Part shown: positions 8,003 to 28,124 of the stretch, in pieces
Position numbering within the stretch: the first letter of the stretch is position 1
Layout of the letters: every line of letters begins with the position of its first letter
Assembly: GCF_023821985.2 (NCBI RefSeq)
Contig: NZ_CP098805.1
Span: forward strand, 5,261,001 to 5,325,000
Length of the DNA stretch: 64,000 nucleotides
Source of the DNA: Dyadobacter chenhuakuii
GTDB taxonomy: Bacteria > Bacteroidota > Bacteroidia > Cytophagales > Spirosomataceae
Direction of reading: 5' to 3'
Translations under genes and position numbers: made by a program
Notes under the pieces: generated by a model
What the model saw: the letters and a program-made list of their open reading frames with translations, nothing else
What the model was told of the DNA's origin: nothing
Database searches by the model: none

Positions 8003-8205
8003 GGTTTAAAGAAAACCATATTGTATTATCCGGCTCTTTTATATTATTTTGTATGACCGTCATTGAATTACTTTAACTTTTTCATAGTAAAATTCATAAA
8101 AAAGCCCGAATTGAGTGTGATAGGGCATTTTTTACCGAAGATGAACGCAAATGTTAAAATGATACACAGGCGGTGACCAGATTTAACTATTTACTTAACA
8201 GACCT

Positions 8206-11200: not shown

Positions 11201-11286
11201 TAAATGACATCCCTTCATTCGGAATTGACTATACCGCTTACCCGAGAGCAAGAACGTGGACAGTTGGTGTTAATGTATCATTCTAA
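8206..11286 (+). CDS. SusC/RagA family TonB-linked outer-membrane transporter
   Basis: Imports a ligand delivered by its SusD partner across the outer membrane, powered by TonB. I chose the ATG at 8206 (MMNLSFHVF); a GTG at 8173 in the same frame is possible. The N-terminus has a long basic leader and then a signal segment (GLFGFLMILIGLSTNVFAQ). Next come a CarboxypepD_reg-like domain (VSGKVTDARAGGVPGVTVTLKG), the SusC signature ALEEVVVVGYG, and the plug (…IRGTSSVLGGNNPLFVIDGVPL, SATAIYGSRGANGVVLITTKRG). The ~22-strand barrel closes with …RARTWTVGVNVSF. Length is normal and the protein is intact. susD follows after 17 nt. The ligand is unknown, since no glycosidase or sulfatase is in the same cluster. 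Confidence 0.96.
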   Translation: MMNLSFHVFRRHDSSNEKNVVTKARLAGRNTGLFGFLMILIGLSTNVFAQDVNVSGKVTDARAGGVPGVTVTLKGSTKGTNTDVEGNYQISVPGNATLTFSAIGYETQDIAVGNKSTVNVTLTEDVKALEEVVVVGYGTVKKKDATGAVSALGSKDFQKGIVTSPEQLMQGRVAGVQITQSSGEPGGGINVRIRGTSSVLGGNNPLFVIDGVPLSGDNTSSGGDNQGVGRQPAKNPLNFLNPDDIASMDILKDASATAIYGSRGANGVVLITTKRGRGKGSLDYGYSLGVSNITKKYDLLNAAEYKAAGGQDQGSDTDWQDLLFRTALTHQHNLSYGGGDASGNYRFSLGYMNQDGIVQTSNVKRYSVGFSGQKKFIGDKLTVGSNLNFANTQDTGVPISENIGFEGDLMGSILKANPTRPAYRGDTLNQSTTTEPNPLAFVNLSKDNNNTLRALGNINAELEIFSGLKFKTVLGFDKSMSTRKQAYSRDLVVAGIGGTQESDKIGRVYIRDVESNNQLMENYFTYDKEIGNVTLNALLGYSYQSFENGSKNVAAANFRTNDLDLMINNLGIAGTVGVKDATSLSSVGSVIQNSSYVKDELQSYFGRVNLGFGSKYLFTGTLRVDGSSKFGGNNKYGYFPSGAFKWKLVEEDFVPKTVFTDLSLRIGYGVTGNQAIPHNVYDRRDRYSDYAINQGADGITGGGLNAVAFNNPDLKWESTAAFNLGLDFSILKGRLSGTLDLYNKSTKDLLFKVVAAQPAPNPFVFRNLDTDIQNRGIELALTGVIVDGKKFSWEMVVNGSYNKNLVKNLIGTYDTGEINGQGLSGAFAQRLAEGQPLFAYFLREFGGFDDNGNSLYPNGDFQQFLGGKSPLPKVNAGLTNNLTFGAFDMSLFFNGVFGHYIYSNTANAFFTQGSFANGRNVTKDVIGNKEGALNAPDVSTRFLEKGNFVRLQNLSLGYRVPMKANKVLSNARLFVTGQNLLTFTKYSGQDPEVSTNKSLNDIPSFGIDYTAYPRARTWTVGVNVSF

Positions 11287-11303
11287 TTCTAACTAATTAT
11301 AAA

Positions 11304-12794
11304 ATGAAAACCAGTCAGATATATAAAATAATGGTTACCGGGGTTTGCATGGCGACGCTGTCGGCTTGTACTGACCTTGTTAACGAGGAAAAGGACTCCG
11401 TGGTAAACGAAGTGGTGGAAGGTAATTTCGCACCGGTGAATGTGGTTGAAGCGCTTTCGTCTGCTTACAAAGATCTTTCTACTTACTCAGATCAGGCGGG
11501 TGTTTACGCCCTTGGCCAGCATACAACAGCAGAAATGATCCCGCCAACACGTGGTGTTGACTGGGGTGATAATGGGGTGTGGCGTACGCTTGACCAACAT
11601 ACCTGGGATGCTTCTCACTCCTATATTCTGAGCGCATGGAACGCATTGAACCAGAGAGCTTATAAAGCAACTGAGATCATCGCATCCAATCCAACCGCTG
11701 TTCAGAAGGCAGAGGCGCAGTTCCTGAGGGCATATAATATGCACTGGGTTATGGATTACTGGGGTTCAGTTCCGGTCAGGGAAGTTACACAAGGTGTTAA
11801 TGATCTTCCAAAAGTGTTAACACGCTCGGAAGCATTTGATTACATCATTAAGGATCTGGAAGAAGCACTTCCTAACCTGCCTAAGAAAGGGCCATCTGTA
11901 AATAACGGAACCGCTTCGAAAGCGGCTGCCAACTTTCTTTTGGCTAAAATGTATCTTAACAAGGCAGTTTACAAAAGCACTACACCAGAAGGGCCCTACA
12001 CATTTGATAAGGCTGATATGGACAAAGTGATTGCTTACGTAGATGCCATTACAGCGGACGGATACGCATTAGAAGCGGATTACTTCGCTGCATTCTCCGC
12101 AACTGCTAAAACTGAGCCAATTTTCAACGTTCAGGAAGGAACTGCTCAGAACCGCTGGATGATGACATTGCACTATGGCCAGAACCCATCGGGATGGAAT
12201 GGTTTCGCTACACTTGCTGATTTCTATGACACTTTCGAAGCAAAAGATACGCGTATCGGAAAGCCTGCGAAAAAAGATGGAACTGAGTTTTCAGGTATCA
12301 GCTACGGTTTCCTGATCGGTCAGCAGTATGATGAAAAAGGTAAGCCGATCATTGATACACGTACGCAGAAGCCTTTGCAATTCACGAAAGACGTTCCTTT
12401 GGCTGGTGCAGCTACCGATAAAGGTATCCGCGTGATCAAATATCACCCTGCAAACTCTGGAAAATATCTTTTGATGCGTTACGCAGATGCTTACCTGATG
12501 AAAGCAGAAGCAATGCTGAGAGGTGGAAATGCAGCCGGTGCCCTTACACAGGTGAACGCACTTAGAAAAGTTCGTGGAGCAACAGCATTGGCATCGTTGA
12601 CGGAGGCTAATCTTTTCGACGAAATCGGTCGCGAGTTGTACTGGGAAGGTGGTAAAAGAACTACTGAAATCCGTTTCGGTAAGTTTACAACCGGAACAGG
12701 AACGTCTGTCAAAGACGCTTATACAGTGCTTTATCCAATTCCTTCTGCTGCCTTGGTTTCCAATGCAAACCTTGAACAGAATCCAGGATATTAA
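11304..12794 (+). CDS. SusD/RagB family surface lipoprotein
   Basis: 496 aa. Lipoprotein signal with lipobox ATLSAC, Cys at about residue 22. It is the lid and ligand-binding partner of the SusC transporter just upstream. The helical TPR-like core is visible (SAWNALNQRAYKATEIIA, AEAQFLRAYNMHWVMDYWGSVPV, ASKAAANFLLAKMYLNK). The typical SusD C-terminus follows (RYADAYLMKAEAMLRGGNAAGALTQVNALR…EIGRELYWEGGKRTTEIRFGKF…YPIP). It is cotranscribed with susC, and a hairpin terminator follows the stop. Confidence 0.96.
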   Translation: MKTSQIYKIMVTGVCMATLSACTDLVNEEKDSVVNEVVEGNFAPVNVVEALSSAYKDLSTYSDQAGVYALGQHTTAEMIPPTRGVDWGDNGVWRTLDQHTWDASHSYILSAWNALNQRAYKATEIIASNPTAVQKAEAQFLRAYNMHWVMDYWGSVPVREVTQGVNDLPKVLTRSEAFDYIIKDLEEALPNLPKKGPSVNNGTASKAAANFLLAKMYLNKAVYKSTTPEGPYTFDKADMDKVIAYVDAITADGYALEADYFAAFSATAKTEPIFNVQEGTAQNRWMMTLHYGQNPSGWNGFATLADFYDTFEAKDTRIGKPAKKDGTEFSGISYGFLIGQQYDEKGKPIIDTRTQKPLQFTKDVPLAGAATDKGIRVIKYHPANSGKYLLMRYADAYLMKAEAMLRGGNAAGALTQVNALRKVRGATALASLTEANLFDEIGRELYWEGGKRTTEIRFGKFTTGTGTSVKDAYTVLYPIPSAALVSNANLEQNPGY

Positions 12795-12853: not shown

Positions 12854-12881
12854 ATTGGCGTACCAATTGAATCCCAGTGTA

Positions 12882-13460
12882 ATGACCCGTTGCTTACTTC
12901 TGTTTTTAGCGCTCTTTGTTTTTAATTGTAATTCAAAAGATTCATCCGAACAGGCCGCAGACGCGCTTTTTCAGACATTGAAAGATAATGAGGCCAAAAT
13001 TGTGGTCAAGATCGGAGGGAAGGAGTTTTACCCAAAAGAAAGCATTTTCTCCGGACAGGCGCTGATCTCGGATAATATGATGAACCTGACATTAACGGAT
13101 CAGTTTGAGGGGAAAACGATCATTAATCTGGGAGGGGAGAAATGGTATGCGGCGCAGCCTATTAGCAAGGCAATCACAGCCAACGGCCCGGTTGAAACAA
13201 GCATTAAAATGGGTAAGATCATTAACAAAGCGCAGATGATCGGCGAGGGTTACATGATGGCTGAGGGCGAGATCACAGCTACCACATTTACAAAAGACAA
13301 AATGGTTTTTCGGATTAAAGGTAAGGTCGGAAAATATAGCGACTTCCAGCAACCCGACAAATATATTCCCGCAGAGGGCTTCATCGTTTATAAAAAGCCC
13401 GCAGTAAGTTTGGGCAACATTACTGAAAAAGAAGTTTTCAGCTCCTCGATTTCGAATTAA
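12882..13460 (+). CDS. small lipoprotein of unknown function
   Basis: The ATG at 12882 gives MTRCLLLFLALFVFNC, a clean lipoprotein signal with lipobox FVFNC (Cys 16). An earlier TTG at 12855 would put polar residues ahead of the signal, so I rejected it. The mature protein is ~175 aa, rich in beta-strand-type alternation (KIVVKIGGKEFYP, MNLTLTDQFEGKTIINLGG, DKMVFRIKGKVGKY), and reads like a single beta-sandwich or lipocalin-like fold. I do not recognise the family. It lies between the susCD terminator and the FG-GAP pair and abuts the next gene with no gap, so it is probably the first gene of that operon. Confidence 0.75.
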   Translation: MTRCLLLFLALFVFNCNSKDSSEQAADALFQTLKDNEAKIVVKIGGKEFYPKESIFSGQALISDNMMNLTLTDQFEGKTIINLGGEKWYAAQPISKAITANGPVETSIKMGKIINKAQMIGEGYMMAEGEITATTFTKDKMVFRIKGKVGKYSDFQQPDKYIPAEGFIVYKKPAVSLGNITEKEVFSSSISN

Positions 13461-16400
13461 ATGATAACAAAATACATGGGCTCCGTGCACACGGCAGCTA
13501 TTTTGACCTTCCTGTTCATTATTTCTTCCTGTAAAGATTCCAGCAAGCCGGACGGCTTGTTCGAGGAAATGGATGCTTCGGCAACGGGGATTGATTTCGT
13601 CAATAAAGTTGAGGACAAAGAAGACGTTAACATTTTCAATTACCGCAACTTCTACAACGGCGGCGGCGTGGCGATCGGGGACATTAACAATGATGGCCTG
13701 CCTGATATTTACTTCACCGCCAACATGGGCGATAACAAACTTTATCTCAACAAAGGCAATTTCAAATTCGAAGACATTACAGCCAAAGCCGGCGTTGCGG
13801 AGCCTGACAAATGGAGCACGGGCGTGGTGATGGTGGACATTAATGGTGATAATTTGCTGGATATTTACGTCTGCAATGCGGGTTACCAGAAATTCGTCAA
13901 CAAGCAAGGCAACTCGCTTTACATTAATAACGGCGACCAGACATTCACCGAATCGGCCGCAAAATATGGCCTGAACGAAACCGGCTACACCACACACGCC
14001 GCATTTTTTGATTATGACCTCGATGGCGACTTAGATGCCTATATTCTAAATAACAGTTTCATCCCAGTAAACACACTCAACTACGCCAACGACCGCAACA
14101 TGCGTGCGAAAGACTGGCCTGTAAAGGATTTTCTCAAAGGCGGCGGCGACAAATTGCTGCGTAATGATAATGGTAAGTTTGTAGATGTGAGCAAAGAAGC
14201 CGGCATTTACGGAAGTCTGATCGGCTTCGGTTTGGGCGTTACCGTAGGTGATATGAATGGCGACCAGTATCCGGACATTTATGTTTGCAACGACTTTTAC
14301 GAAAAGGATTATCTATACATTAATCAAAAGGACGGAACATTCGCCGAGGAGCTCGAAAAACGCGTGAAACACACGAGTCTGGCTTCTATGGGTGCGGATA
14401 TGGGCGACATTAACAACGATGGTTATGCCGAGCTTTTCGTTACGGACATGCTTCCGCGTGACGAATATCGCTACAAAACGACCACTTCATTTGAGAACCA
14501 TTATCTCTTCAATCTTAAAAAAGAAAAGGGTTTTTACAATCAATATATGCAGAACAGCCTCCAATTGAACAATCAGGATGGCACATTCAGCGAGATTTCA
14601 AATTATTCGGGTGTGGCTGCGAGCGATTGGAGCTGGGGGGCTTTGCTTTTTGACGCAGATAATGATGCCAAAACGGACATTTACGTTTGCAACGGCATTT
14701 ACCATGACATTCTGGATCAGGACTTTATCGATTTTTTTGCTAACGAAGTGACGCAGAAAATGGTGATGTCGGGCGAGAAGGAGAATATGCAGAACATTAT
14801 TGATAAAATGCCTTCCAATCCGGTCCCAAATAACTTTTTTCATAATGAGGGCAACTTGCAGTTCAAGGAGCGTGCAGATGAATTTGGGTTAGGCGAAAAG
14901 TCGTTTTCCAACGGCGCAGCTTACGCGGATCTGGACAACGATGGCGATCTGGATCTGGTGGTTAACAATGTGAATCAGAAGTGTTTTGTTTACAAAAACA
15001 AGTCCGAAGCGAAGGCAGAAAAGAACCATTATATCAAGCTCAAACTCGCCGGAGAAGGCAAGAACACATATGCGATTGGCTCTAAAATTGAAGTTTTTGC
15101 AGGCAGCCAGATTTTTAGCAAGCAGGTTAACCCCGCACGCGGCTTTCAATCCAGTACGGAATATCCGATAACGATTGGCTTGGGAAAAACCAGTGTGATT
15201 GATTCCATTCGCATCATCTGGCCAAATCGGAAGGTTACAATGCATTCGAAAATCAATGCGGATACAACATTGAATTTTAAGATTACCAGCACAGGAGCAG
15301 ACTTCAATAATGCGGTTAAGCAGAAAACAATGATGCTGACCGAGGTCGCAGGCAACGGCTTTGATGCGCACCAGGAGGATAAATACGAAGATTTTTACCA
15401 CGAGCGTAACATTCCAATGCTCCTCTCACAGGAAGGTCCAAAGGCGGCCATCGGGGATGTGAACGGCGATGGGCAGGCGGATGTGTATGTGTGTGGCGCG
15501 AAAGGGCAGGGTGGACAATTGTATCTGCAAAAAGGATCGTCATTTATAAAATCAAGCCAAAAAGTGTTCATGGATCTGGCCGGATTTGAAGATACGGCGG
15601 CCACATTCTTTGACGCGGATGGCGACGGCGACCTGGATCTGGTGGTAGGAAGCGGCGGGAATGAAACATTAGTAACCAGCCCCGATTTACCCACAAGACT
15701 TTATCTGAATGACGGAAAAGGCAATTTTGCGATCAATACGCGGGCTTTGCCGCCCAATTCTATGAACACGGCGGTCATTGCGGCACATGATTATGACAAT
15801 GATGGCGACATTGATTTGTTCGTGGGAAGCCGCAGCGTGCCGCGCGAATACGGATCGAGTCCGAGGAGTTATCTTTACCAGAATGATGGAAAGGGCGTTT
15901 TTAAGGAAATTGGCAAAACGATTTTGCCAGAGCTCACCAAGCTGGGCATGGTGCGGGACGCTTCCTGGGCGGATGTGGATGGTGATAAAATCAAAGAGTT
16001 GATCATTGCAGGCGACTGGATGGCGCCCGCGATCTTTAAATATAATGGCGGCAAATTTGAAAAAATAGCGTCTGGCCTTGAAGCTTACACTGGGTTCTGG
16101 GGTTGCCTGAAAGTGGCGGATATGGACGGTGATGGCGATCAGGACATTATTTTTGGCAATATAGGCGAGAATTTTTCTTTGAAAGCTTCGGCTGACACGC
16201 CGCTGAAAATCTGGATTAATGATTTCAATAAGAACGGGACCATTGAAAAAGTAATGACCAAAACCGTCGAAGGCAAGGATATGCCGGTGCTGCTCAAACG
16301 TGAGATCACCACGCAATTTCCCTTCCTGAAAAAGGAGAGTCTTAAACATTCTGAATATGCTAATAAGTCCGTGCAGGATCTGTTTCCGAAGGATTTGTTG

Positions 16401-16817
16401 AAATCTGCGATCGAGAAATCAGTGAATTATCTTAAATCTGCGGTTGCTGTGAATGATGGCAAAGGCCGGTTTGCATTGCAGGAACTGCCTGCGATTGCAC
16501 AAATTTCCTGTCTGAATGCCATTGAAAGCGAAGATGTGAACGGCGATGGCAAACCTGACCTGATCGTTGGCGGTAATTATACGCATTTCATTCCACAGCT
16601 CGGCGCGCTGGACGCATGCCGCGGTAATGTGCTCATTAACAAGGGAAATATGCAGTTTGATGTGCTGCTCAGCACGCAAAGCGGCTATGCCATCGACGGT
16701 GAAGTGAAACAGATCAGTCCGATCAACATTCAGGGCGCGCCTTACCTGATCAATCTGGTGAGCAATGCCAAGCCCGTCCTTTTCAAGATTAACAAGCCGC
16801 AACAGGCCAATTTGTAG
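13461..16817 (+). CDS. FG-GAP/VCBS repeat lipoprotein with ASPIC/UnbV domain (CRTAC1 family), copy 1
   Basis: 1118 aa. Lipoprotein signal with lipobox IISSC (Cys ~24). I count about 13 Asp-rich calcium-loop repeats of the FG-GAP/VCBS type, for example GDINNDGLPDIYF, YDLDGDLDAYI, ADLDNDGDLDLVV, FDADGDGDLDLVV and EDVNGDGKPDLIV. These should fold as one or two integrin-like beta-propellers. An ASPIC/UnbV domain sits mid-protein (~535-610; GSKIEVFAG…RGFQSSTEYPITIGLGK…IRIIWPN). Calcium binding and a surface or periplasmic location follow from the family; the ligand is unknown. The next gene starts 3 nt after the stop and is a full-length paralogue. Confidence 0.92.
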   Translation: MITKYMGSVHTAAILTFLFIISSCKDSSKPDGLFEEMDASATGIDFVNKVEDKEDVNIFNYRNFYNGGGVAIGDINNDGLPDIYFTANMGDNKLYLNKGNFKFEDITAKAGVAEPDKWSTGVVMVDINGDNLLDIYVCNAGYQKFVNKQGNSLYINNGDQTFTESAAKYGLNETGYTTHAAFFDYDLDGDLDAYILNNSFIPVNTLNYANDRNMRAKDWPVKDFLKGGGDKLLRNDNGKFVDVSKEAGIYGSLIGFGLGVTVGDMNGDQYPDIYVCNDFYEKDYLYINQKDGTFAEELEKRVKHTSLASMGADMGDINNDGYAELFVTDMLPRDEYRYKTTTSFENHYLFNLKKEKGFYNQYMQNSLQLNNQDGTFSEISNYSGVAASDWSWGALLFDADNDAKTDIYVCNGIYHDILDQDFIDFFANEVTQKMVMSGEKENMQNIIDKMPSNPVPNNFFHNEGNLQFKERADEFGLGEKSFSNGAAYADLDNDGDLDLVVNNVNQKCFVYKNKSEAKAEKNHYIKLKLAGEGKNTYAIGSKIEVFAGSQIFSKQVNPARGFQSSTEYPITIGLGKTSVIDSIRIIWPNRKVTMHSKINADTTLNFKITSTGADFNNAVKQKTMMLTEVAGNGFDAHQEDKYEDFYHERNIPMLLSQEGPKAAIGDVNGDGQADVYVCGAKGQGGQLYLQKGSSFIKSSQKVFMDLAGFEDTAATFFDADGDGDLDLVVGSGGNETLVTSPDLPTRLYLNDGKGNFAINTRALPPNSMNTAVIAAHDYDNDGDIDLFVGSRSVPREYGSSPRSYLYQNDGKGVFKEIGKTILPELTKLGMVRDASWADVDGDKIKELIIAGDWMAPAIFKYNGGKFEKIASGLEAYTGFWGCLKVADMDGDGDQDIIFGNIGENFSLKASADTPLKIWINDFNKNGTIEKVMTKTVEGKDMPVLLKREITTQFPFLKKESLKHSEYANKSVQDLFPKDLLKSAIEKSVNYLKSAVAVNDGKGRFALQELPAIAQISCLNAIESEDVNGDGKPDLIVGGNYTHFIPQLGALDACRGNVLINKGNMQFDVLLSTQSGYAIDGEVKQISPINIQGAPYLINLVSNAKPVLFKINKPQQANL

Positions 16818-16820
16818 TTC

Positions 16821-19800
16821 ATGCTTTTTCAAAAAATATTTACCAAAATTCTGCTCATTGCTGTCATCCTGGCCGGTTTTTCCTGCGCCAGGGAAAAGGA
16901 CATTGCCGAGTATGATTTTGACCTGCTAACCGCGGAAAAAACCGGGATCGACTTCTCCAACACGCTGAAACCGACCAAGGATTTCAACATATTTTACTAC
17001 ATGTATTTTTACAATGGAGGCGGGGTTGGAGCCGGGGATCTGAACAACGACGGACTGATCGACCTCTGCTTTACGGCCAACCAGGAGCCCAACCGCATTT
17101 ACCTGAACAAGTCGGGCATGAAGTTCGAGGATGTGACGGAGAAGGCGAATTTCAAGGGTGATAAGGGCTGGTCTAATGGTGTCTCGATCGTGGACATTAA
17201 CCAGGATGGCATGCTGGACATTTACATTAGTCAGGTTGGGGATTTTGAGTCGATGAAGGGGCATAACCTGCTTTTTGTATGCCAGGAAATCAAGGATGGC
17301 GTGCCGGTTTATGTTGAAAAATCAAAGGAATATGGGCTCGATCTGGTCGTTTTTGGAACGCAGGCGATGTTCTTTGATTATGATCTGGACGGCGATCTGG
17401 ACATGTTCCAGCTCAATCACTCGGTTCACCAGAATGGCACATTTGGCCGCAGGGCGCTTTTTGAGAATGTATATCATCCGCTGGCTGGCGACAAGTTGTT
17501 CAGAAATGACAACGGAAAATATGTGGAAGTCTCCAAAACAACCGGTATTCACAGTTCTGCGCTGGGTTATGGCCTTGGACTGGGCGTTGGCGACATTAAT
17601 TTTGACGGTTATCCCGACATGTACATTGGTAACGATTTTCATGAAAATGATTATTTGTATATCAATCAGAAAAATGGCGCGTTCCGGGATATGACGGATT
17701 CGTCGCTGATGCATACGAGCCAGTTTTCAATGGGCGTGGACATTGGGGATCTGAACAATGACATTTTTCCTGAAATCGTCTCGCTGGATATGCTTCCGTC
17801 CAACTATGAGATCCTCAAAAAATCGGAAGGGGAGGACATGTACAGCATTTTCAAATACAAGATCCGGCAGGGTTATAATTACCAGTTTGCACGAAATAAT
17901 CTGCAATACAATAACGGAAACGGCACATTTAGCGAGATCGGCATGTATTCCGGCGTGCATTCTACGGACTGGTCCTGGGCAGCTCTTTTCTCCGATTTCA
18001 ATAATGACGGCTTAAAAGACCTCTTCATTTCCAATGGTATTCCGAAGCGGATGAATGATACGGATTACATCAAATTTGTTTCGGATGACGTGGTTCAGGA
18101 GAAGATCCGGAATAAAAACTTCGACGAAAATGATCCGGGCTTAGCAGACAAACTGCCTGAAATTAAGCTGAATAACAAGTTTTTTGCCAATAAGGGCGAT
18201 CTGGCGTTCACGGATATGGACGGCTTGATCCGGAATGATCAGGTTTCGTATTCCAATGGTTCGGTATATGCCGATCTGGACAATGATGGCGACCTGGACA
18301 TTGCGACCAATAACATTAACGAAAAGGCATTTGTTTACGAAAATTTGAATGATAAAAAGGCTGGTAAAGGTGATTTTACAAAGCTTTATCTCAAAGGGAA
18401 ACAGGGCAACCGCAATGCCATCGGCACCAAATGTCTGGTTTTTAAAAAGGACAAAGTGCTGAGTTTTGAGAAATTCCCGGTTCGGGGTTTTCAGTCGAGT
18501 ATGGAAGTGCCTTTGCATCTTGGTTTGGGCAAAAAGACCGATGTGGATTCCGTGTTTGTAATCTGGCCGGATAACCGTTTTCAAGTGCTTAAATCGGCTG
18601 ATTTGAAGGATTCGCTGACATTAACCTACAAAAATGACCTGCCTGTTTTCGATTATCAAACATTCAAAACCAGCAGAGAAACCAAGGATTATACATTCGA
18701 AGACATTGCAGCGCAGCTGGGTGTGGACGTGAAGCATGAGGAAAATAATTTCGTTGAGTTTGATCGTAACTCACTCATTCCCTTTGAAGTAACTGCCGAC
18801 GGACCAGCTTTGGCGATTGCAGACATTAACCACGATGGCCTGGATGACATTTTCGTTGGGTCTTCCAAAAAGCATCGGAATCATCTGTTTTTGCAAACGA
18901 ATGCAGGTGTTTTCAAGGAATCATTACAGCAGGCTTTGCTGAAAGACAGCACTTATGAGGAAGTCAGTGCGGAGTGGGTGGATGTGAACCGGGATGGACA
19001 TGTGGACCTCGTGGTGGCGACGGGCGGGAATGAGTATGTGAACAACTCCGAATTCCAGATGCCGCGGATTTATCTGAATGATGGCAAGGGAAATCTGAGT
19101 GCTAGGGCGGATGCATTTGCCAATATTTACGTGACCGCTTCGTGCGTCATTCCGTTTGATTTTACGGGTGATGGGGTCGTGGATCTGTTCATTGGCGGTC
19201 GTGCTGTGCCGCTCAATTATGGTGAGATTCCGAAGTCTTATCTGCTCAAAAATGATGGTTCGGGGAAATTTACGGATGTTACGAGTCAGTATGGGAAGGA
19301 ACTTTCGAACATTGGTTATGTAAAAAATGCCAAACTGGCTGATCTGGACAAAGACGGGGATCAGGATCTGGTGCTCGCGTTGGAATGGGACGGGATTGTG
19401 ATGATGCAGAACAACGGCAAAAGCTTTTCCAAAAAAATGCTGACGGACAAAAAAGGCTGGTGGAATTTCGTCATGCCTTATGATTTTGATGGCGACGGTG
19501 ACCTGGATATCCTGGCTGGAAACCTGGGTTTGAACAGCCGGTTGAAAGCCAATGCTGCGCAGCCGGTGAAAATGTATATCAATGATTATGACGGAAATGG
19601 CCGTAAGGAACCGCTGCTAACTTATAACCTGAATGGCAAAGAAGCACTTTTTCCGACCAAGCTGGAAATGGAAAAACAAATGCCCGTGATCCGTAAAAAG
19701 TACATTTTCGCAACCGATTTTGCCAGAGCCAACATTGGCGATATAGTAGGCGAAGACAAGCTGAAAGAAGCGCAGGTTTTATCCGCAGATTATTTTGAAA

Positions 19801-20156
19801 ATGCCGTTTTGGTCAATGATGGCAAAGGCAATTTTGAAGTAAAACCATTGGGATACAAAGCGCAATGGACGCCATTTTACGACGCGCAAATCATTGATGC
19901 CAACGGCGACAAACTGCCCGATGTGCTGATTATGGGTAATTTCTATAACTGCAACATTCAAATGGGCCGCTACGACAGCGATTTTGGCACGGTGCTCATC
20001 AACCGCGGCAACTGCAACTTCACGCCCGAATCATTGAAAGGTTTGCAGGTCAAAGGGCAGGTGAAGCATTTGAAAAACATCAAGTTGAAAAGCGGCAATG
20101 CCATCGTGGCTGCGCGGAATGACGACAAGCTCGTGGTGATCCGGCGTAAGAAATAG
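16821..20156 (+). CDS. FG-GAP/VCBS repeat lipoprotein with ASPIC/UnbV domain (CRTAC1 family), copy 2
   Basis: 1111 aa, same architecture and length as the gene before it, clearly a tandem duplication that has diverged. Lipobox AGFSC (Cys ~22). About 13 Asp-rich loops (GDLNNDGLIDLCF, YDLDGDLDMFQL, ADLDNDGDLDIAT, YDFDGDGDLDILA, IDANGDKLPDVLIM). ASPIC/UnbV segment at ~530-605 (GTKCLVFKKDKVLSFEKFPVRGFQ…LGLGKKTDVDSVFVIWPDN). It is translated right behind copy 1 (3-nt gap), so the two are almost certainly made together and may work as a pair. No terminator is visible before the convergent TonB receptor gene 30 bp on. Confidence 0.92.
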   Translation: MLFQKIFTKILLIAVILAGFSCAREKDIAEYDFDLLTAEKTGIDFSNTLKPTKDFNIFYYMYFYNGGGVGAGDLNNDGLIDLCFTANQEPNRIYLNKSGMKFEDVTEKANFKGDKGWSNGVSIVDINQDGMLDIYISQVGDFESMKGHNLLFVCQEIKDGVPVYVEKSKEYGLDLVVFGTQAMFFDYDLDGDLDMFQLNHSVHQNGTFGRRALFENVYHPLAGDKLFRNDNGKYVEVSKTTGIHSSALGYGLGLGVGDINFDGYPDMYIGNDFHENDYLYINQKNGAFRDMTDSSLMHTSQFSMGVDIGDLNNDIFPEIVSLDMLPSNYEILKKSEGEDMYSIFKYKIRQGYNYQFARNNLQYNNGNGTFSEIGMYSGVHSTDWSWAALFSDFNNDGLKDLFISNGIPKRMNDTDYIKFVSDDVVQEKIRNKNFDENDPGLADKLPEIKLNNKFFANKGDLAFTDMDGLIRNDQVSYSNGSVYADLDNDGDLDIATNNINEKAFVYENLNDKKAGKGDFTKLYLKGKQGNRNAIGTKCLVFKKDKVLSFEKFPVRGFQSSMEVPLHLGLGKKTDVDSVFVIWPDNRFQVLKSADLKDSLTLTYKNDLPVFDYQTFKTSRETKDYTFEDIAAQLGVDVKHEENNFVEFDRNSLIPFEVTADGPALAIADINHDGLDDIFVGSSKKHRNHLFLQTNAGVFKESLQQALLKDSTYEEVSAEWVDVNRDGHVDLVVATGGNEYVNNSEFQMPRIYLNDGKGNLSARADAFANIYVTASCVIPFDFTGDGVVDLFIGGRAVPLNYGEIPKSYLLKNDGSGKFTDVTSQYGKELSNIGYVKNAKLADLDKDGDQDLVLALEWDGIVMMQNNGKSFSKKMLTDKKGWWNFVMPYDFDGDGDLDILAGNLGLNSRLKANAAQPVKMYINDYDGNGRKEPLLTYNLNGKEALFPTKLEMEKQMPVIRKKYIFATDFARANIGDIVGEDKLKEAQVLSADYFENAVLVNDGKGNFEVKPLGYKAQWTPFYDAQIIDANGDKLPDVLIMGNFYNCNIQMGRYDSDFGTVLINRGNCNFTPESLKGLQVKGQVKHLKNIKLKSGNAIVAARNDDKLVVIRRKK

Positions 20157-20186: not shown

Positions 20187-22577
20187 TCAAAATGTGAAAT
20201 TGTAAGCAACCGTTGCGATCGGCGTTGCGAAAATATTCAGCTTATAGCTTTTGGTAACGGCGTTTTCGGTCTTAAAAAAAACGGAATAAGCGTTTTTGCG
20301 GGCATACAGATTGTAGATCGAGAATGTCCAATGGCCTTGCCAGCGGCGGTTTTTCATCATCGGATTGTAAATGTTCCATGCAAAGTCGAGGCGGTGATAG
20401 TCGGGAATGCGCTTGTTGTTACGCTTGTCGTAGAATGGGTAAACATTGTTTTGGTAATTGATAAAGCCAATCGGCTCAGAATAAGGCCTTCCGGTGCTGT
20501 ACGCGAAGGTGAATCCGAAGGAATTGTGCGTGTCAACCGTAATGTCCAGGGAAGCGTTGAATGTGTGCGGTTTATCGTAATTGGCTGGATACCAGTCGCC
20601 ACGGTTTACTTGTTCGATCAATGCGGCGTCCCGGTCTGCAATGTTCAGTGATCTTGCATAAGTGTAATTGGCCCAGCCTTTAAGTTTCCCTTTCTTTTTA
20701 GAAAGCATCATTTCCAGGCCATAGGACCTGTTTCTGCCCTGGATCATCTGCGTTTCGGGATATTGCTGTAACAGGAAATCCGCGCCTGGCTTGTAGTCAA
20801 TGATGTTTCTGGCATTGCGGTAGTAACCTTCCAGCGTGATCTCATAAATGTCCTCATCAAACGATTGGTAGAATCCAGCCGTAAACAAATGGCTGATCTG
20901 CGGCTTAATGTGCGTATCGCTCGTTTTCCAGCGGGAAGTGGGGATAGGCGTGGCCGTGTTGGAAACCACCTGAATGTATTGCCGCATCAGGTTGTAGCCG
21001 AATTTGAGCGAAGTCCGGTCATTCAGCGCATAGCGCACACCCACACGCGGCTCCGGCCCCCCGTAGGATTTCGAAACTTTACCTTTGTTATAAACGGTTG
21101 AATCCAGAACCGAAAAATCATCCCTCGGCTGGCCGGGCAAATAATTTCTGACAATAGCCTTGCCCGTCGCCATAAAGAACGAATAACGCAATCCGAGCGA
21201 AACGGCCAGTTTTTTGGAGAAATTGATCTCATCATCAGCATACCAGGCCACTTCATTGGCATGCTCAGTGGGCGTTGCAATGTAGTTGACGCTCTTGCTC
21301 AGTCCCGGCTGCAAGGTGCCGGGTGCAATTACATATTGCGTGCCGATAAATCCCGTTTCAAACTTGTGGTTGGCCAATTGATAGTTAATGTTCGACTTCA
21401 CCTGACGTTGCTCCACGGCCGATTCCAGCTTCACGACATTGCCCGTTTCCTTTTCCGCTGTGCCAATGTCAGGCGTGTACTTGGCATAAATGGCAGTCGT
21501 TTGCAATGTAACCTCCGGACTGATCACGTGCAGCCAGCGCAGCATGCCGTTGGTCGTAATGTGCTTGTAATAAGTGTCCGTCCCGACCACATTGGGCAGG
21601 TTAGTCAGCAGGTCTGTTTTGAAATAATCATTGCTGTAATAGCCCATGAATGTGAGCGTATTCTTTTGATTGATCTTCCAAAACGACTTAGCAGAAAGCT
21701 CGCCAAACTTGGCGCTGATGTTATTCAGCTGCTTGTCGAGTTTGGGCAAAATAAAATCATTAAAAGCCCCACGCCCAGCTACATACACACCCAGTTTCCC
21801 CTTGATAATCGGCACATCGACCATTAATCGGTTTGAAATGAGACTGATACCGCCTTCGAGTCTGAGTTTTTCCAGATTAGGATTTTTGGTTGAAATATCA
21901 AGGACGGATGCCACCCGGCCGCCGAAGCGCGCAGGCACATTGCCTTTGTACAAATCAAGACTATTAACTGTATTTGGCGGAATAACCGAAAACAGCCCGA
22001 ACATGTGCGTGGGATTAAAGATCGGTGTATCGTCCAGCAAAATGAGCGTTTGGTCCGTCGTCCCGCCTCTTATATTGACACCGTTGGAGGCTTCACCGAC
22101 GCTGGAAACGCCTGGTAACATTTGCAGGCTGCGCAAAATATCCAGCTCACCAAAGGCGGAAGGCAGCTTTTCGAGCGTCTTGATGTTGATCTGCAAGGCG
22201 CCGAGAATGGGCTGCCGGATGGTTTGGTCAAAACCTTTGCTTGTAATGATAACTTCTTCCAGCTGGCTCGATGTTGTGTTCATTAGCACATCAAAATGCG
22301 CTTTCTGCGTGCCGCTTTTGATAAAAACTTTGAATGCTTCGTAACCCACGTGCCGGATCACGAGCACATGATCGCCATTAGGAAGGTTAATGGTAAAATT
22401 GCCTTTCGCATCCATTTCCGCCGCCGACCAGCTTTTTCGGTAATCGATCACGATGCTGGCTCCCGGCAAAGGCGCGCGCGTAGCCGAATCTCGCACCGAG
22501 CCCGTGACGGTGAGCCCCTGTGCCGAAGCGGTGATAACATTGACCAGTAAGAAAAGAAAAATGTATAATCCCTTCAT
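20187..22577 (-). CDS. TonB-dependent receptor (FecA/carboxypeptidase-domain type, DUF4249 partner)
   Basis: 796 aa. Signal peptide (MKGLYIFLFLLVNVITASAQ), CarboxypepD_reg-like domain ~22-105 (VTGSVRDSATRAPLPGASIVI), then a plug (~115-230; LPSAFGELDILRSLQMLPGV, NGVNIRGGTTDQTLILLDDTPIFNPTHMFGLFS) and a barrel ending in aromatic-terminated strands (…ATVAYNFTF). The family imports large or scarce ligands using TonB energy. It is the last gene of an operon after GH31 and DUF4249, 11 nt behind DUF4249. The context suggests that the cargo is a product or substrate of the GH31 enzyme; that is inference. Confidence 0.93.
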   Translation of the reverse strand: MKGLYIFLFLLVNVITASAQGLTVTGSVRDSATRAPLPGASIVIDYRKSWSAAEMDAKGNFTINLPNGDHVLVIRHVGYEAFKVFIKSGTQKAHFDVLMNTTSSQLEEVIITSKGFDQTIRQPILGALQINIKTLEKLPSAFGELDILRSLQMLPGVSSVGEASNGVNIRGGTTDQTLILLDDTPIFNPTHMFGLFSVIPPNTVNSLDLYKGNVPARFGGRVASVLDISTKNPNLEKLRLEGGISLISNRLMVDVPIIKGKLGVYVAGRGAFNDFILPKLDKQLNNISAKFGELSAKSFWKINQKNTLTFMGYYSNDYFKTDLLTNLPNVVGTDTYYKHITTNGMLRWLHVISPEVTLQTTAIYAKYTPDIGTAEKETGNVVKLESAVEQRQVKSNINYQLANHKFETGFIGTQYVIAPGTLQPGLSKSVNYIATPTEHANEVAWYADDEINFSKKLAVSLGLRYSFFMATGKAIVRNYLPGQPRDDFSVLDSTVYNKGKVSKSYGGPEPRVGVRYALNDRTSLKFGYNLMRQYIQVVSNTATPIPTSRWKTSDTHIKPQISHLFTAGFYQSFDEDIYEITLEGYYRNARNIIDYKPGADFLLQQYPETQMIQGRNRSYGLEMMLSKKKGKLKGWANYTYARSLNIADRDAALIEQVNRGDWYPANYDKPHTFNASLDITVDTHNSFGFTFAYSTGRPYSEPIGFINYQNNVYPFYDKRNNKRIPDYHRLDFAWNIYNPMMKNRRWQGHWTFSIYNLYARKNAYSVFFKTENAVTKSYKLNIFATPIATVAYNFTF

Positions 22578-22588
22578 TCACAATTCAT

Positions 22589-23800
22589 TTATTGCGTCCA
22601 TTTCCAGTCTTTGGGTAAAAACGGCGTGCGCGACCTGCTTTTTTTACAAATCGCCAGCGGAATGTATGGCCGCCCGGCGGAGCGCTCTTCCAGGATCGGG
22701 TCGCGGTTGTGAATGGTTTTGAAAAGCTGGTTCAACACCGCCGCATTCTTGATATTTTTCCGCCAGAGCATTGTCCGGTATTCCGAAACGGAGGAAGCAG
22801 TAAAGAACCCGATGATCAGCTCATTTTTGTCTTTCTGATTGGTAACATTGCCTTGAATGGGCGCGGGCGGCGTGTCTGCCAGTGTTCCTGAATTATTTGC
22901 CTGATCCTGAATGAGTTTCAGGAAGCGATAAGCATTAGGCGTGAGCGAATTCTGTTGCAGGCTTACCAGGCACGGATTGGATTGTAAAAGCGGAATCTGC
23001 GCCACGAGCTTGTCTTTTTGTCCTTGCCCATTGGTGTAAATGTCTGAGAAAATGGTGATGTCTTTGCTGTAAAAAATATCCCAGCAAAGGTCCTCGCAGG
23101 TGTAATCGTAAATGTCGTTGTATTTTAATGTCAGGTCTTTGAAACAGTCGCCATCCACACCGTTTTCCGCATCAAAAAGATAGTATTTTCCCTGATTGCA
23201 GGTTGTGCAGGTTTTTTGCAATTCCCAGAGCGTCCATTGCCAGCGGTAAAAATTCTTCTCGCCCGCAGGATCATCGAAATCAAGATAAATGTCGTTGCTG
23301 GGCGTGAATTCACCGTAATATTCCGAAAGTTTTGGGATTCCTTTGGGGTTAAAAACGTCATACGCCCGGTTTACGGCTGAAACCGGCGGCATGATTTCAG
23401 AGGAAGATTTATAAAATTTTCCTTTTTCTGTTAAAAATTCCAGCTCATAGGCATCGCCTACTTTACCTTTGAAGTTGGCAGGCAACTGATAAATGCCCGG
23501 CTCCGTTTCGGTAAGGTTAAGCACTTGTGTCCCGTTTACGATCACCTTCGCCTTTGCTTTTTCCAGAGGCAATGTGGACAGGCCTTTGGTCCAGACCGTC
23601 TGCGTGAATTCAGAACTTTCGTTGGTTGCTTCCGGATTGGTTTTGGATAAGGAAATAAACTGCGGGACATCCAGATCCGTCAGCACACCGTCCACCACAA
23701 TATATTCCTTCGCCGTCTCAAAAGTGACGCCATATGGCTCCACACAGGCCGTAATGCCGGTGATCAGCAAGGTTAGCAAAAACGAAAGCCTGTAATTCAT
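22589..23800 (-). CDS. DUF4249 lipoprotein, partner of TonB receptor
   Basis: 403 aa. Lipoprotein signal MNYRLSFLLTLLITGITAC (Cys 19), then the typical DUF4249 start (VVDGVLTDLDVPQFISLSKT). An Ig-like N-terminal portion (TEPGIYQLPANFKGKVGDAYELEFL) is followed by a larger domain with paired Cys (CTTC at ~195; CEDLC at ~235) and a basic C-terminus. DUF4249 genes are commonly found next to TonB receptors in Bacteroidota and probably serve as an outer-membrane ligand-binding or lid lipoprotein, though this has not been proved. The start lies 2 nt after the GH31 stop, so translation is likely coupled. Confidence 0.9.
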   Translation of the reverse strand: MNYRLSFLLTLLITGITACVEPYGVTFETAKEYIVVDGVLTDLDVPQFISLSKTNPEATNESSEFTQTVWTKGLSTLPLEKAKAKVIVNGTQVLNLTETEPGIYQLPANFKGKVGDAYELEFLTEKGKFYKSSSEIMPPVSAVNRAYDVFNPKGIPKLSEYYGEFTPSNDIYLDFDDPAGEKNFYRWQWTLWELQKTCTTCNQGKYYLFDAENGVDGDCFKDLTLKYNDIYDYTCEDLCWDIFYSKDITIFSDIYTNGQGQKDKLVAQIPLLQSNPCLVSLQQNSLTPNAYRFLKLIQDQANNSGTLADTPPAPIQGNVTNQKDKNELIIGFFTASSVSEYRTMLWRKNIKNAAVLNQLFKTIHNRDPILEERSAGRPYIPLAICKKSRSRTPFLPKDWKWTQ

Positions 23801-23802
23801 GG

Positions 23803-26544
23803 CTATTGAATAACTATTTTCTTTGTAAAAAACTGCCCCTGCCCATTCCGAAGCCTCACCACATACGCACCGCCCGAAACGCGCAGGTCCAGGCTCAAAT
23901 CCAGCATTTTACCCTTGCTGTGCTGCCCTAATGCACTTTTATAAATTGAAACCCCGGCAACATTGTACACTTCCAGTTCATAGTAGCCGGTTTCAGGAAC
24001 ATTCACTTTTACCGAAACAGGGGACCGGGCCGGATTTGGAAAAACATTCAGCACAAGATCATCCGCTTTCGGCTCGGAGCCGGTAATCACGTCGAGGCCC
24101 ACACGCGTGACTGCAATGTTGGCTGTTGTATTGCAATCCCAGTCAAACTGCACTTGCAGCTGCTTGCCCAGCAAGTCGTAATAAGCCGTGTTGTTCTTGA
24201 ATTCGGAGCTTGTATAAACGACCGGGATCGGTTGACCATTCAGCGTTACGGCAGTTGGATTGGACGTAAAGTTTTTTATTTCAAATATTAAATGTCTCTT
24301 GGCAAGGGATTTATCAAAGTTTTTTATCCGCTGAACCGTCACATTTACCAGATTTTTGGAAACCTTCCCTCCAAATTCGACGAGTTCATATTTTGATTTT
24401 GTCAAAGAATTCGGGTCAATGCCGTCATCGTGGAACATGGTGAATGTAGATGTCGGAACTGAAATGTCCTGGTAAAACCGCACCGTCAGGCTGTCGGAAG
24501 TGTATTGGTCGGTGGATTTTTTGGTCGTGGAAGTGGACATAGGAATAAAGCTGCCGCCTCTGGCATAGACCGGAATGTGATCCACGGTCAGTTTTGGGAA
24601 AATATTCGTGTTGCCATTATGCACTTCGTTATTCCAGAAATTAAACCATTTCCCAGGCGGCAAAACGATTTTTCGAGACGGCATTCCGTGCAGCAGAACG
24701 GGCGCAATCAGCAGATTTTCTCCAAAGAAATACTGATCGCCGAGGTTACCAAGCGCCCTGATATTATTAAAATAGTCCATAGGCAGGCAGATTGGCCTTC
24801 CCGATGTGCTGTTTTTCCAGGCCAGTGAATAAATGTAGGGCAGAAGCTGGTAACGCACGGTTGCATATTTTTTGACCGTGCTGTAAAACGGTTCGCTGAG
24901 GTTAAACGGTTCTATATTCTCGCGCTGACCGGCCACTTTCAAAATCGGCGTGAATGTCCCAAACTGAAACCAGCGCAGATCCAGTTCTTCATCCTTTTCT
25001 GCCTTATCCGACATAGTAAAAGCCCCACCCACATCCGAATGCATATAACCCATTCCCGACATGCCAGCCTGAACCAGCATCGGGATTTGGAGCTTCAAAC
25101 CAGCCCAATAGCGACTCACATCGCCACTCCAGGGCAAAGCCCCATAGCGCTGCGAACCCGCCCAGCCAGAACGTGTCATGTGAAAAATCCGCTTTTCAGG
25201 AAAGTCTTTTGTGAAGTTATTGTAAAAGGTTTTGGACCAAAAAAGAGAATACAGATTATGTATCTGAAAGGCATTGCCCAGCTCGTGCACGGCATTCATC
25301 GGGTGCGGGTCCGGCTCTGTTTTCTCGCTCCACCAGCCCGCAACGCCCTGAGCGGCCAGTTTTTTGTGTTTTTCCCAAAGCCAGGTTTGGGCAGCAGTTT
25401 TGAAAATGTCAAGCAGTCCGGTCGTTGCAGTGCCTACGTTCATTGCGTAGGTTTGGCCGCTGTTAGGAGTTTTTGTAAAAAGAGATTGCGCTTCCGCTGG
25501 TTTGTAACTAATGGACTTGTTGCTAATGTAGGGATCTGCAATTAAAATGGTTTTGACACCTTTATCCAGTAAGCTTTTCACCATTCCCACTGCATTAGGC
25601 CAGTTTTTCGTATCCCAATCCATATTCCCCCGCACATTCTGTCCGCCATACCAATGTGAGTCCAACGCCAAGGCATCCACGGGAAATCCCTGATCTTGCA
25701 ATTTCGTAATGGCCACCGTAGCATCACTCTCATTGGCATAACCCGATTTTGACTGAATGTAACCAAACGCCCAGCGCGGAGGCAGCGGCTGGCGGCCCGT
25801 CAGAAGCGTATAATTAGCCAGAATCTCATCATTATCATTGCCATGGATCAGATAATAAGCCCACTTCCCCGTGCTCGCCGACTCTACGCGCATCAATGTC
25901 GAATCCACAGCGCCCACATACATGCGCATGGAACCAGGTCTGTCGCTATCGAAGAAAAGGCCATATTTGTGGGACGAAACAATGAAAGGCACATTCAGGC
26001 TTTGTGACAAACCTGTTGACTGGTCAAAATATTCGTGTTCCCAGGAGTTATAAAAGTCGAAACCTTTCCTCGCAAGATCCGGGCCGAAAGGGCGACCGCC
26101 CGCGCCATGAAAAACGTCTTTTGGATTAATGTTGAAAAGATAGCTGACCGAATCCTTTGCCTGCACAAAACCCCGCGTTTCCTTGATTTTAACTGCATTA
26201 CCAGACTTCAATGCAACATTAAGCGGGAACTTGCCGATTGCCAGCGTGCACTTTTCAGTCCGGATCTCAATGTTGTCTTTGGTTTCAACGATGTTCAGCG
26301 CAGCTGTTGAAGGCGGCAGAATTACGGAGTAGGAACTGTCCAGACCGGGCGCATTTTTAGCCGGAAGCATTTGCACCTTAAATATTTCCGGGGAGAAACT
26401 CTGAATAAGCAACACACCTTTGCTGCCCTGGACTCTGATACTGCCTTTGCCCTTCTCGTAGCTTATAAAATTGCCTGCTCCCTGGCCGAAAGACAGCTTA
26501 CCCGCAACTACAAAAAGCAAAACAAGGAAGTATTTGTATGTCAT
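23803..26544 (-). CDS. Glycoside hydrolase family 31 protein with T9SS C-terminal sorting domain
   Basis: 913 aa. Signal peptide (MTYKYFLVLLFVVAGKLSFGQ), GH31 N-terminal beta-sandwich (~25-250), catalytic barrel (~250-590; LPPRWAFGYIQSKSGY), C-terminal beta domains, and a T9SS sorting domain (~830-913; VFPNPARSPVSVKV…GGAYVVRLRNG…KKIVIQ), so it is secreted or surface-anchored. The acid/base Asp of GH31 is present (WSGD, Asp475). At the nucleophile site the family motif W-x-D-x-x-E reads W405-S-E407-K-T-E410: the Asp is replaced by Glu. The enzyme may have altered or lost hydrolysis. It would be expected to act on alpha-glucosides or alpha-xylosides. It is the first gene of the operon with DUF4249 and the TonB receptor. 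Confidence 0.92.
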   Translation of the reverse strand: MTYKYFLVLLFVVAGKLSFGQGAGNFISYEKGKGSIRVQGSKGVLLIQSFSPEIFKVQMLPAKNAPGLDSSYSVILPPSTAALNIVETKDNIEIRTEKCTLAIGKFPLNVALKSGNAVKIKETRGFVQAKDSVSYLFNINPKDVFHGAGGRPFGPDLARKGFDFYNSWEHEYFDQSTGLSQSLNVPFIVSSHKYGLFFDSDRPGSMRMYVGAVDSTLMRVESASTGKWAYYLIHGNDNDEILANYTLLTGRQPLPPRWAFGYIQSKSGYANESDATVAITKLQDQGFPVDALALDSHWYGGQNVRGNMDWDTKNWPNAVGMVKSLLDKGVKTILIADPYISNKSISYKPAEAQSLFTKTPNSGQTYAMNVGTATTGLLDIFKTAAQTWLWEKHKKLAAQGVAGWWSEKTEPDPHPMNAVHELGNAFQIHNLYSLFWSKTFYNNFTKDFPEKRIFHMTRSGWAGSQRYGALPWSGDVSRYWAGLKLQIPMLVQAGMSGMGYMHSDVGGAFTMSDKAEKDEELDLRWFQFGTFTPILKVAGQRENIEPFNLSEPFYSTVKKYATVRYQLLPYIYSLAWKNSTSGRPICLPMDYFNNIRALGNLGDQYFFGENLLIAPVLLHGMPSRKIVLPPGKWFNFWNNEVHNGNTNIFPKLTVDHIPVYARGGSFIPMSTSTTKKSTDQYTSDSLTVRFYQDISVPTSTFTMFHDDGIDPNSLTKSKYELVEFGGKVSKNLVNVTVQRIKNFDKSLAKRHLIFEIKNFTSNPTAVTLNGQPIPVVYTSSEFKNNTAYYDLLGKQLQVQFDWDCNTTANIAVTRVGLDVITGSEPKADDLVLNVFPNPARSPVSVKVNVPETGYYELEVYNVAGVSIYKSALGQHSKGKMLDLSLDLRVSGGAYVVRLRNGQGQFFTKKIVIQ

Positions 26545-26747: not shown

Positions 26748-28049
26748 CTAAAACTTGTAAGTCGCGGCTAGTCCAACACTCACCATTTTGACGTGTTGAT
26801 CATAGAAAGTAAATAAGTGAGAATTGAAAACTCCGAATGAACTATCTGGGACAGTGGTGTCATTCCTGGTTTTTGGTAAAAAACTCCTGTTCATCATTTT
26901 TTGATAAATTCCACCTAAATACTTCACAGAGGCTGTGATCGAAACGCGCTCCGTCACCGTGTAATCCACACCTAATCCAACATTGAAACCAACTAAGTAT
27001 TTCTTCGCGTCCAGTTTTGACCAGCGGTAAAAGTAACCCATCTCCGATTCAGGTGTTTCCTGATAGCCAGCGGCTTGCATTACATCGTTTTTGAGCATAA
27101 ATGCAACGGAAGGGCCTACGAAAACATACGGCTTGATCTTACTTCTGAGATCGCGGTTCAAAGCAATGGTCATGGACAGGTCGAGGTGGAAGGTCCTACT
27201 TGAAAACCCGGTTATTTTAAGATCCTTATCATACTTTTCGGGTATAATAATGGAATTTGGAAATGGAATGGCGTGAAATCCGGTATTGCTAAGCAAGAGG
27301 TTTTTGGCCGTTGTATTGTTTATATAAGCATCAAGGTTGATGCCAATTCTCTTTGATAGGTCAATGTCGACCCGGAGGCCCAGCGGAATGGAATTGCTGC
27401 TTCCATATTCCGTTCGCTTATTAGTTGCTAATCCGGTTGGTGCAGAATTAAGGTCAAAAGCTGTCCTGTTAAACGAATAGCCAGCATATGGCCCTATCCG
27501 TATGGAAGTTTTCATTTGACTCAGGGATTCTTCAAATAACTTGGAATAAGCTCCCTGGGATTGATTGGCGAAAAGTGTCAGATTTTTGAGATAGCGCGCT
27601 GAATATTGGGCTTTAATGTTGGACTTGGCGTAATAGGAGTTCACAAGCTCTTTTCCAAAAATAATGGGCAGCGCCCGGTTCATATGCTGCTGGGAAATAA
27701 CAAGCATCGAATCTCTTTTCTCGATATAAAAGAGCTTGTTTTTCTCATTGAACAACAGGCTGAACGGGCCCTCGACCAGCAACACAAATAATGTGTTATC
27801 CGTCCCTGCGGACTTGTTCACGTAATATTTTCCATTCGCATTCCTAATCTCCACGATGTCAGCAAAGGAGATTAATTGCTTTTTACCGCCGCTATTGACG
27901 GACACTGCGTTCTGTTTATACAAAGGAACTGCTTTGCCGATAACTGGTTTTATCTGATTTTTCAGAAAAACGGAATCAATTTGAGCGAAGGAAAGAATGG
28001 AAATGAGCGAAAAAGTGATGCAGAAGATGAAGAGCCGGAACGGTCGCAC
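26748..28049 (-). CDS. outer-membrane beta-barrel protein of unknown function
   Basis: No ATG is in frame. A GTG at 28049 gives an ideal signal peptide (VRPFRLFIFCITFSLISILSFAQ, first residue read as Met); a TTG at 28085 is possible but would place a strong palindrome inside the coding region. Residues ~25-150 form an N-terminal domain (KQLISFADIVEIRNANGKYYVN…LLVEGPFSLLF). The C-terminal half has amphipathic strands and barrel features (IRIGPYAGYSFN, GLRVDIDLSKRIGINLD, YVFVGPSVAFML, YLVGFNVGLGVDYTVTERVSI) and ends VSVGLAATYKF, a typical OMP C-terminus. Similar proteins are annotated only as outer-membrane beta-barrel. It is probably monocistronic. Confidence 0.8.
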   Translation of the reverse strand: MRPFRLFIFCITFSLISILSFAQIDSVFLKNQIKPVIGKAVPLYKQNAVSVNSGGKKQLISFADIVEIRNANGKYYVNKSAGTDNTLFVLLVEGPFSLLFNEKNKLFYIEKRDSMLVISQQHMNRALPIIFGKELVNSYYAKSNIKAQYSARYLKNLTLFANQSQGAYSKLFEESLSQMKTSIRIGPYAGYSFNRTAFDLNSAPTGLATNKRTEYGSSNSIPLGLRVDIDLSKRIGINLDAYINNTTAKNLLLSNTGFHAIPFPNSIIIPEKYDKDLKITGFSSRTFHLDLSMTIALNRDLRSKIKPYVFVGPSVAFMLKNDVMQAAGYQETPESEMGYFYRWSKLDAKKYLVGFNVGLGVDYTVTERVSITASVKYLGGIYQKMMNRSFLPKTRNDTTVPDSSFGVFNSHLFTFYDQHVKMVSVGLAATYKF

Positions 28050-28054
28050 AAAAA

Positions 28055-28082
28055 ATACATTTGGAGTGGTCTCCAAATGTAT
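28055..28082. promoter_or_regulatory. perfect 12-bp palindrome at the barrel gene start
   Basis: ATACATTTGGAG at 28055-28066 and its exact complement at 28071-28082 with a 4-nt centre. Each arm contains TACATTTG, an exact -7 element, so on the minus strand a -7 lies at 28074-28081. The palindrome ends 5 nt before the GTG start. It looks like an operator over a core promoter, or a 5' leader hairpin. Confidence 0.55.
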
Positions 28083-28124
28083 CAAAGTAAACTCAATTTT
28101 ACTTAATTTTTTATAAAATTAATA

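Follow-up and report, generated by a model that had tools for sequence, protein, structure and literature searches.

At one conserved locus of Dyadobacter and other genera, GH31 proteins have, as judged from the orthologs and their tree, lost their catalytic residues at least four times independently, while the gene persists with an open frame, its neighbors remain and purifying selection continues. One of the altered orthologs lies in the window, by which we mean the whole 64,000-nucleotide stretch of Dyadobacter chenhuakuii DNA analyzed here. The reading that we favor, with some reservation, is that this locus can do without GH31 catalysis and that the T9SS-secreted protein of the window is a pseudo-glycosidase or a component that binds glycans, with weak activity at most.

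The window GH31 protein (23803 to 26544, minus strand; 913 amino acids) comprises a GH31 barrel (PF01055, 1e-76), a proximal C-terminal domain (PF21365, 2.9e-17) and a T9SS tail, and passes the family threshold. A first-pass annotation had read a T9SS signal on it, and both Pfam and NCBIfam place a type A sorting domain (Por_Secre_tail) at 23806 to 24045 (minus strand), which together with a signal peptide, recognized by eye only, marks the protein as T9SS cargo. Relatives at 86-94% identity are D. alkalitolerans and two Dyadobacter strains. The closest solved structure is that of CjAgd31B, a GH31 oligosaccharide 4-alpha-glucosyltransferase from Cellvibrio japonicus (PDB 4b9y and 5i23), with a phmmer match at E 1.7e-139 aligned over residues 70-803; relative to it, the T9SS tail is extra. 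In that alignment, GWWSEKTEPD of the window protein pairs gaplessly with GWWGDLGEPE of CjAgd31B, such that E407 corresponds to D412 and D475 to D480. D412 is the nucleophile and D480 the acid/base of CjAgd31B (PMC9389588); Glu407 is therefore at the nucleophile position and Asp475 is the acid/base. The nucleophile motif, W404-W405-S-E407-K-T-E410-P411, spans 25312 to 25335 on the minus strand (W405 to E410 at 25315-25332), with Glu407 encoded by GAG at 25324 to 25326. Two claims of the first-pass annotation are thereby borne out: where the GH31 motif WxDxxE has its nucleophile Asp the window protein has Glu407, and the Asp of WxGD is intact as Asp475. A different Asp filling the nucleophile slot, the case against which the annotation had proposed an alignment, is ruled out by the gapless pairing, and a frameshift or sequencing error behind Glu407 is ruled out by the agreement of six genomes. 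We place the window protein in GH31 on fold and ancestry only.

The annotation had also described the rest of the fold as normal in appearance, which does not hold for the active site: replacements affect the invariant His of the -1 subsite and a further two residues of the pocket. Ala538 (24931 to 24933, minus strand) stands in place of the His, Ala508 (25021 to 25023, minus) in place of the Phe or Tyr of the SDxGG[FY] motif, and Ser296 (25657 to 25659, minus) in place of the Leu beside Asp295, a position occupied by Gln in four species of the Glu clade, as we call the Dyadobacter orthologs with Glu at position 407. CjAgd31B and the window protein thus have in common the acid/base (Asp475; 25120 to 25122, minus), the sugar-binding Arg (Arg458; 25171 to 25173, minus) and the Trp and Asp of the pocket, but differ at D412 (Glu407), H540 (Ala538), F513 (Ala508) and L300 (Ser296). 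In a 45-sequence alignment, the Glu clade carries H538A (the His of the RxH motif), F508A, L296S/Q and usually R536K, and the Dyadobacter ortholog G022 has Ser, Thr and Met at positions 538, 508 and 296, with Asp407 retained. Asp475, Arg458, Asp295, Asp504 and Trp405 are retained in all six Glu-clade sequences. Hydrogen bonds to the -1 sugar in human GAA come from D404, D518, R600, D616 and H674, and further ligand contacts include W516, W613 and F649 (PMC5653652). Matched by motif position and conserved spacing rather than by direct alignment of GAA, these eight residues would correspond to D295, E407, R458, D475, A538, W405, W472 and A508 of the window protein; by motif position, the equivalents of D518 and H674 are altered in the Glu clade. 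The His of alpha-glucosidase II sits at the sugar 4-OH according to a report on MYORG (PMC9491548), and the equivalent -1 residues given for CtGII, another GH31, include His691 (PMC9061262).

Among 48 Dyadobacter genomes searched, 13 encode a GH31 ortholog at ≥60% identity; position 407 is Glu in 6 of these, always encoded by GAG, and Asp in 7. The next closest ortholog (G022, 76% identity) carries Asp407. Across 222 genomes of the family (presumably Spirosomaceae, going by Dyadobacter), the pattern GWWxE..EP matches in 7 genomes and GWWxD..EP in 15; six of the GWWxE..EP genomes are those of the Glu orthologs, and the seventh match, in G211, is a chance one within a 21-amino-acid frame. An intact close copy elsewhere in the window genome was also sought, and only a paralog of 28% identity was found.

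By protein search, 30 of the 222 family genomes have a GH31 match at E≤1e-60, and in 24 of them it is an ortholog at ≥44% identity; the matches of the other six (G088, G090, G141, G146, G147 and G210), at ≤32% identity, lie outside the catalytic-residue census. None of the 24 ortholog genomes has a second GH31 match at E≤1e-60; therefore, no intact close copy takes over. The 24 locus orthologs form one clade in the tree and span five pocket states: intact in 11, loss of the His group only in one (G022), Glu in 6, loss of all five sugar-contacting residues in 4, and loss of the acid/base in 2. The four orthologs in which all five are lost, a fully dead clade from genus g29 (G161, G162, G165 and G167), carry D295N, W405A, D407V/I, R458S, D475N and H538N and have clearly lost the catalytic residues of a glycosidase within a retained GH31 fold. 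By the same measure, the nucleophile of the window protein has become another carboxylate and its -1 His is lost, with the acid/base retained. The two orthologs lacking the acid/base are G126 (D295N, W405V, D475T, H538N) and G145 (W405Y, D475H, D504S, H538D), each represented by one genome (66% and 97% complete, respectively) in which assembly errors are possible. Their GH31 frames, of ~920 amino acids, are open and have no ATG near the start, which may reflect an alternative start codon or an assembly flaw.

The count of at least four separate losses follows from the presence of intact relatives of the altered lineages in the tree, where the g29 clade is sister to G171/G172 and G126 is sister to G101/G108. 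Trees disagree on where G145 sits at the root, and one of them groups it with G117 at a support of only 46; in either tree its loss would be separate if the ancestor was intact. Outside the locus, D407, D475, H538 and R458 were retained in 123/123 other GH31s, with zero losses; these comprise 17 genus paralogs and 106 of the listed matches, only part of which were taken, after two duplicates were dropped. The -1 His was thus present in all 123, versus 11/24 locus orthologs, and Glu at position 407 occurred in 6 of the 147 sequences examined, all of them in the Dyadobacter Glu clade. The locus subtree makes up a fraction of 0.090 (9%) of the tree branch length, giving P 6.7e-5 for all four losses falling there in a test framed post hoc. 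An ordinary GH31 alpha-glucosidase that simply tolerates Glu would fit the high overall similarity to CjAgd31B, but the invariant -1 His and Phe are also gone and the 123 other GH31s all keep both Asp and His, and we consider this reading very improbable.

Where changes fall within the protein bears on whether the gene is merely decaying. In 98 reference GH31s (87 Agd31B-like proteins and the 11 intact orthologs), 36 positions are invariant. The dead clade departs from them at six, each an active-site residue; every Glu-clade member departs at D407 and H538, with variation inside the clade at a further two; two intact groups match at all 36. A smaller test run beforehand had found 0 of its 64 positions broken in the nine Asp orthologs apart from G022. 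On these comparisons, the change is targeted to the active site. Ongoing decay, with a GH31 gene that is losing function and is a future pseudogene, would explain why its dN/dS in the Glu clade is 2-3 times that of most neighboring genes (0.097 vs 0.018-0.046). However, that ratio lies well under 1 and intact copies show a similar one, GH31 reading frames are open in 24/24 orthologs with the T9SS tail and fold residues retained, and changes at invariant positions sit in the active site rather than at random, all of which leaves decay with only a slim chance. The dN/dS values are pairwise Nei-Gojobori estimates; saturated pairs without dS, which included some D-clade pairs and all G022-D pairs, were excluded from the means, and the within-D value of 0.064 is biased for that reason. 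The Glu-clade mean of 0.097 (range, 0.080-0.127; 15 pairs) compares with 0.034 for DUF4249, 0.032 for the TonB receptor, 0.036 for FG-GAP, 0.046 for the SDR gene and 0.018 for purH, and the dead pair G162-G165 (0.095) resembles the intact pair G171-G172 from the same genus (0.114). GH31 outpaces its neighbors whatever its catalytic state, yet is under clear purifying selection. Variation in the pocket region relative to the rest of the protein was 0.16-0.67 in the Glu clade (four pairs), 0.49-0.95 in intact pairs and 0.38-0.96 in dead pairs; the less variable Glu-clade pocket argues that it is still in use, for binding or for altered chemistry.

The company that this gene keeps is conserved. 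GH31, a DUF4249 lipoprotein-like gene (22589 to 23800, minus strand; 403 amino acids) and a TonB-dependent receptor gene with a carboxypeptidase-regulatory-like domain (20187 to 22577, minus; 796 amino acids) are contiguous in 24/24 loci, which upholds the first-pass description of GH31 as the head of this gene string. In the window, a TonB receptor gene that is SusC-like by position and domains (8173 to 11286, plus strand), a SusD-like gene (11304 to 12794, plus), g200 (12855 to 13460, plus; a ~200-amino-acid protein of the locus with no Pfam match) and the FG-GAP/ASPIC-UnbV gene FGGAPa (13461 to 16817, plus) lie upstream of the GH31-DUF4249-TonB receptor block and of a second FG-GAP/ASPIC-UnbV gene, FGGAPb (16821 to 20156, plus). 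With SusC/SusD at 8173-12794 and a glycoside hydrolase, this is a polysaccharide utilization locus of the SusCD type. SusC and SusD adjoin the block in 10/11 non-Dyadobacter loci, where the genes form a single-direction string (SusC-SusD-g200-FGGAPa-GH31-DUF4249-TonB receptor) followed in nine by FGGAPb; the tenth (G126) stops at a contig edge. The remaining locus, of G145, has GH31-DUF4249-TonB receptor, the rest being absent within the 18.8 kb examined. Dyadobacter loci carry the GH31-DUF4249-TonB block in inverted orientation with respect to the FG-GAP genes. The full arrangement from SusC to the second FG-GAP gene is conserved across several genera, and the genus with the fully dead GH31 has an additional FG-GAP gene after the locus. 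Between GH31 and the SDR gene (26748-28085 of the window), small outer-membrane-type genes vary in number and kind among closely related species.

GH31 and DUF4249 may also share a history of exchange. Trees of neighboring genes place G022 among the Glu species (support of 91 with G009 and of 59-63 deeper), and the GH31 tree places it outside them. Synonymous divergence between G022 and the Glu clade is 1.2-1.6 fold higher over GH31 and DUF4249, ~1.2 where the TonB receptor gene begins, and near 1.0 (0.92-1.14) in the other flanks. Recombination probably transfers these two genes as a unit, a hint that they are functionally coupled.

How the window protein might work follows from what it has kept (its fold, the tail for secretion and, within the pocket, the acid/base, Arg and Asp) and what it has not. 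Loss of normal retaining alpha-glucosidase chemistry is suggested by D407E together with the replacement of the sugar-binding His and a contacting Phe by Ala. The protein, whose tail is observed, would be secreted by the T9SS and remain at the surface with a sugar pocket formed by Asp295, Arg458, Asp475, Asp504 and Trp405. Canonical double displacement would be blocked or slow, with a nucleophile one carbon longer and the His absent, and gene order suggests that oligosaccharide bound at the cell surface may then be passed to the DUF4249/TonB-receptor pair. The main rival is an active retaining enzyme that uses Glu407 as its nucleophile on a different -1 sugar: His to Ala and Phe to Ala would enlarge the pocket, the other sugar would lie farther from the barrel by roughly the length of one carbon-carbon bond, and the longer Glu would reach C1. 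Glu is the nucleophile in retaining alpha-glucan enzymes of GH57, and the earlier statement that a retaining alpha-glycosidase needs the shorter Asp was accordingly too strong. The strongest point for such an enzyme is a Glu-clade pocket more conserved than the rest of the protein; the acid/base, Arg, Asp295, Asp504 and Trp are unchanged throughout that clade, the changes arose as a set in the -1 pocket, and changes in this pocket alter GH31 sugar specificity in MYORG (PMC9491548). The unchanged residues and the less variable pocket count against the loss of catalysis, as they also fit a working, retuned enzyme. On the other hand, no census GH31 outside the clade has Glu here, and the locus does not require catalysis, since orthologs at the same place have lost the acid/base outright. 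We regard the active Glu407 enzyme as unlikely, although it deserves to be taken seriously. An inverting enzyme with Glu as the general base has far less to recommend it. GH97 has inverting and retaining members, with Glu as the base of the inverting ones, but that base lies ~1.6 Å further from the anomeric center than the Asp nucleophile of GH27 (PMC2670981). Lengthening the side chain on an unchanged backbone position would instead bring the carboxylate nearer, with no obvious room for water.

The first-pass annotation had offered a binding protein, a weak enzyme or a variant of new specificity. All three were sensible, and the balance shifts toward the binding protein because orthologs at the same locus have lost catalytic residues independently. 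The window protein has most likely been retained for oligosaccharide binding at the cell surface. Catalysis may have survived the first step, given that G022 has lost the His group and kept both catalytic Asp residues. Whether the GH31 of this locus went from enzyme to surface sugar receptor on at least four independent occasions, with the Glu clade part-way and G022 an intermediate that has lost only the sugar-binding His group, seems to us evenly balanced. If so, selection at the locus would favor sugar binding, alongside hydrolysis or in its place. Annotation of GH31 proteins as alpha-glucosidases or xylosidases goes by their fold. The close orthologs of this single locus span intact, His-less, Glu-nucleophile and fully dead states, making a route from glycosidase to receptor testable on few proteins. 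The same comparison would offer a first lead on the function of the DUF4249/TonB-receptor pair, which is always found with the GH31 of this locus.

Judged by titles and the openings of abstracts, the open-license literature yielded no GH31 pseudo-enzyme and no natural Asp-to-Glu nucleophile in GH31. Human GAA and other GH31 retaining alpha-glucosidases share the fold and, by motif, the active-site layout of the window protein, but of the five hydrogen-bonding residues of GAA, matched by motif position, two are replaced in the window protein and all five in the g29 orthologs. The nearest precedent appears to be a set of six GH97 outlier sequences described as lacking both nucleophile and base and as possibly inactive or using other apparatus (PMC2670981). 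Like the GH31 of this locus, they are natural members of a Bacteroidetes alpha-glycosidase family without catalytic residues; they belong to another family and form a single group, whereas the GH31 losses recur at one syntenic locus with intact relatives. YKL-39 (GH18), klotho (GH1) and CyRPA (GH33) are pseudo-glycosidases whose folds were retained for binding after catalysis was lost (PMC7828330), and the window protein would resemble them if it binds sugar. Unlike the window protein, none of these three examples is a GH31 or sits in a bacterial SusCD-type locus. In SusCD utilisomes, surface glycoside hydrolases and glycan-binding proteins cooperate with SusCD complexes (PMC7618045); compared with the systems described there, the window GH31 adjoins DUF4249 and a second TonB receptor, and it is the hydrolase itself that has been altered.
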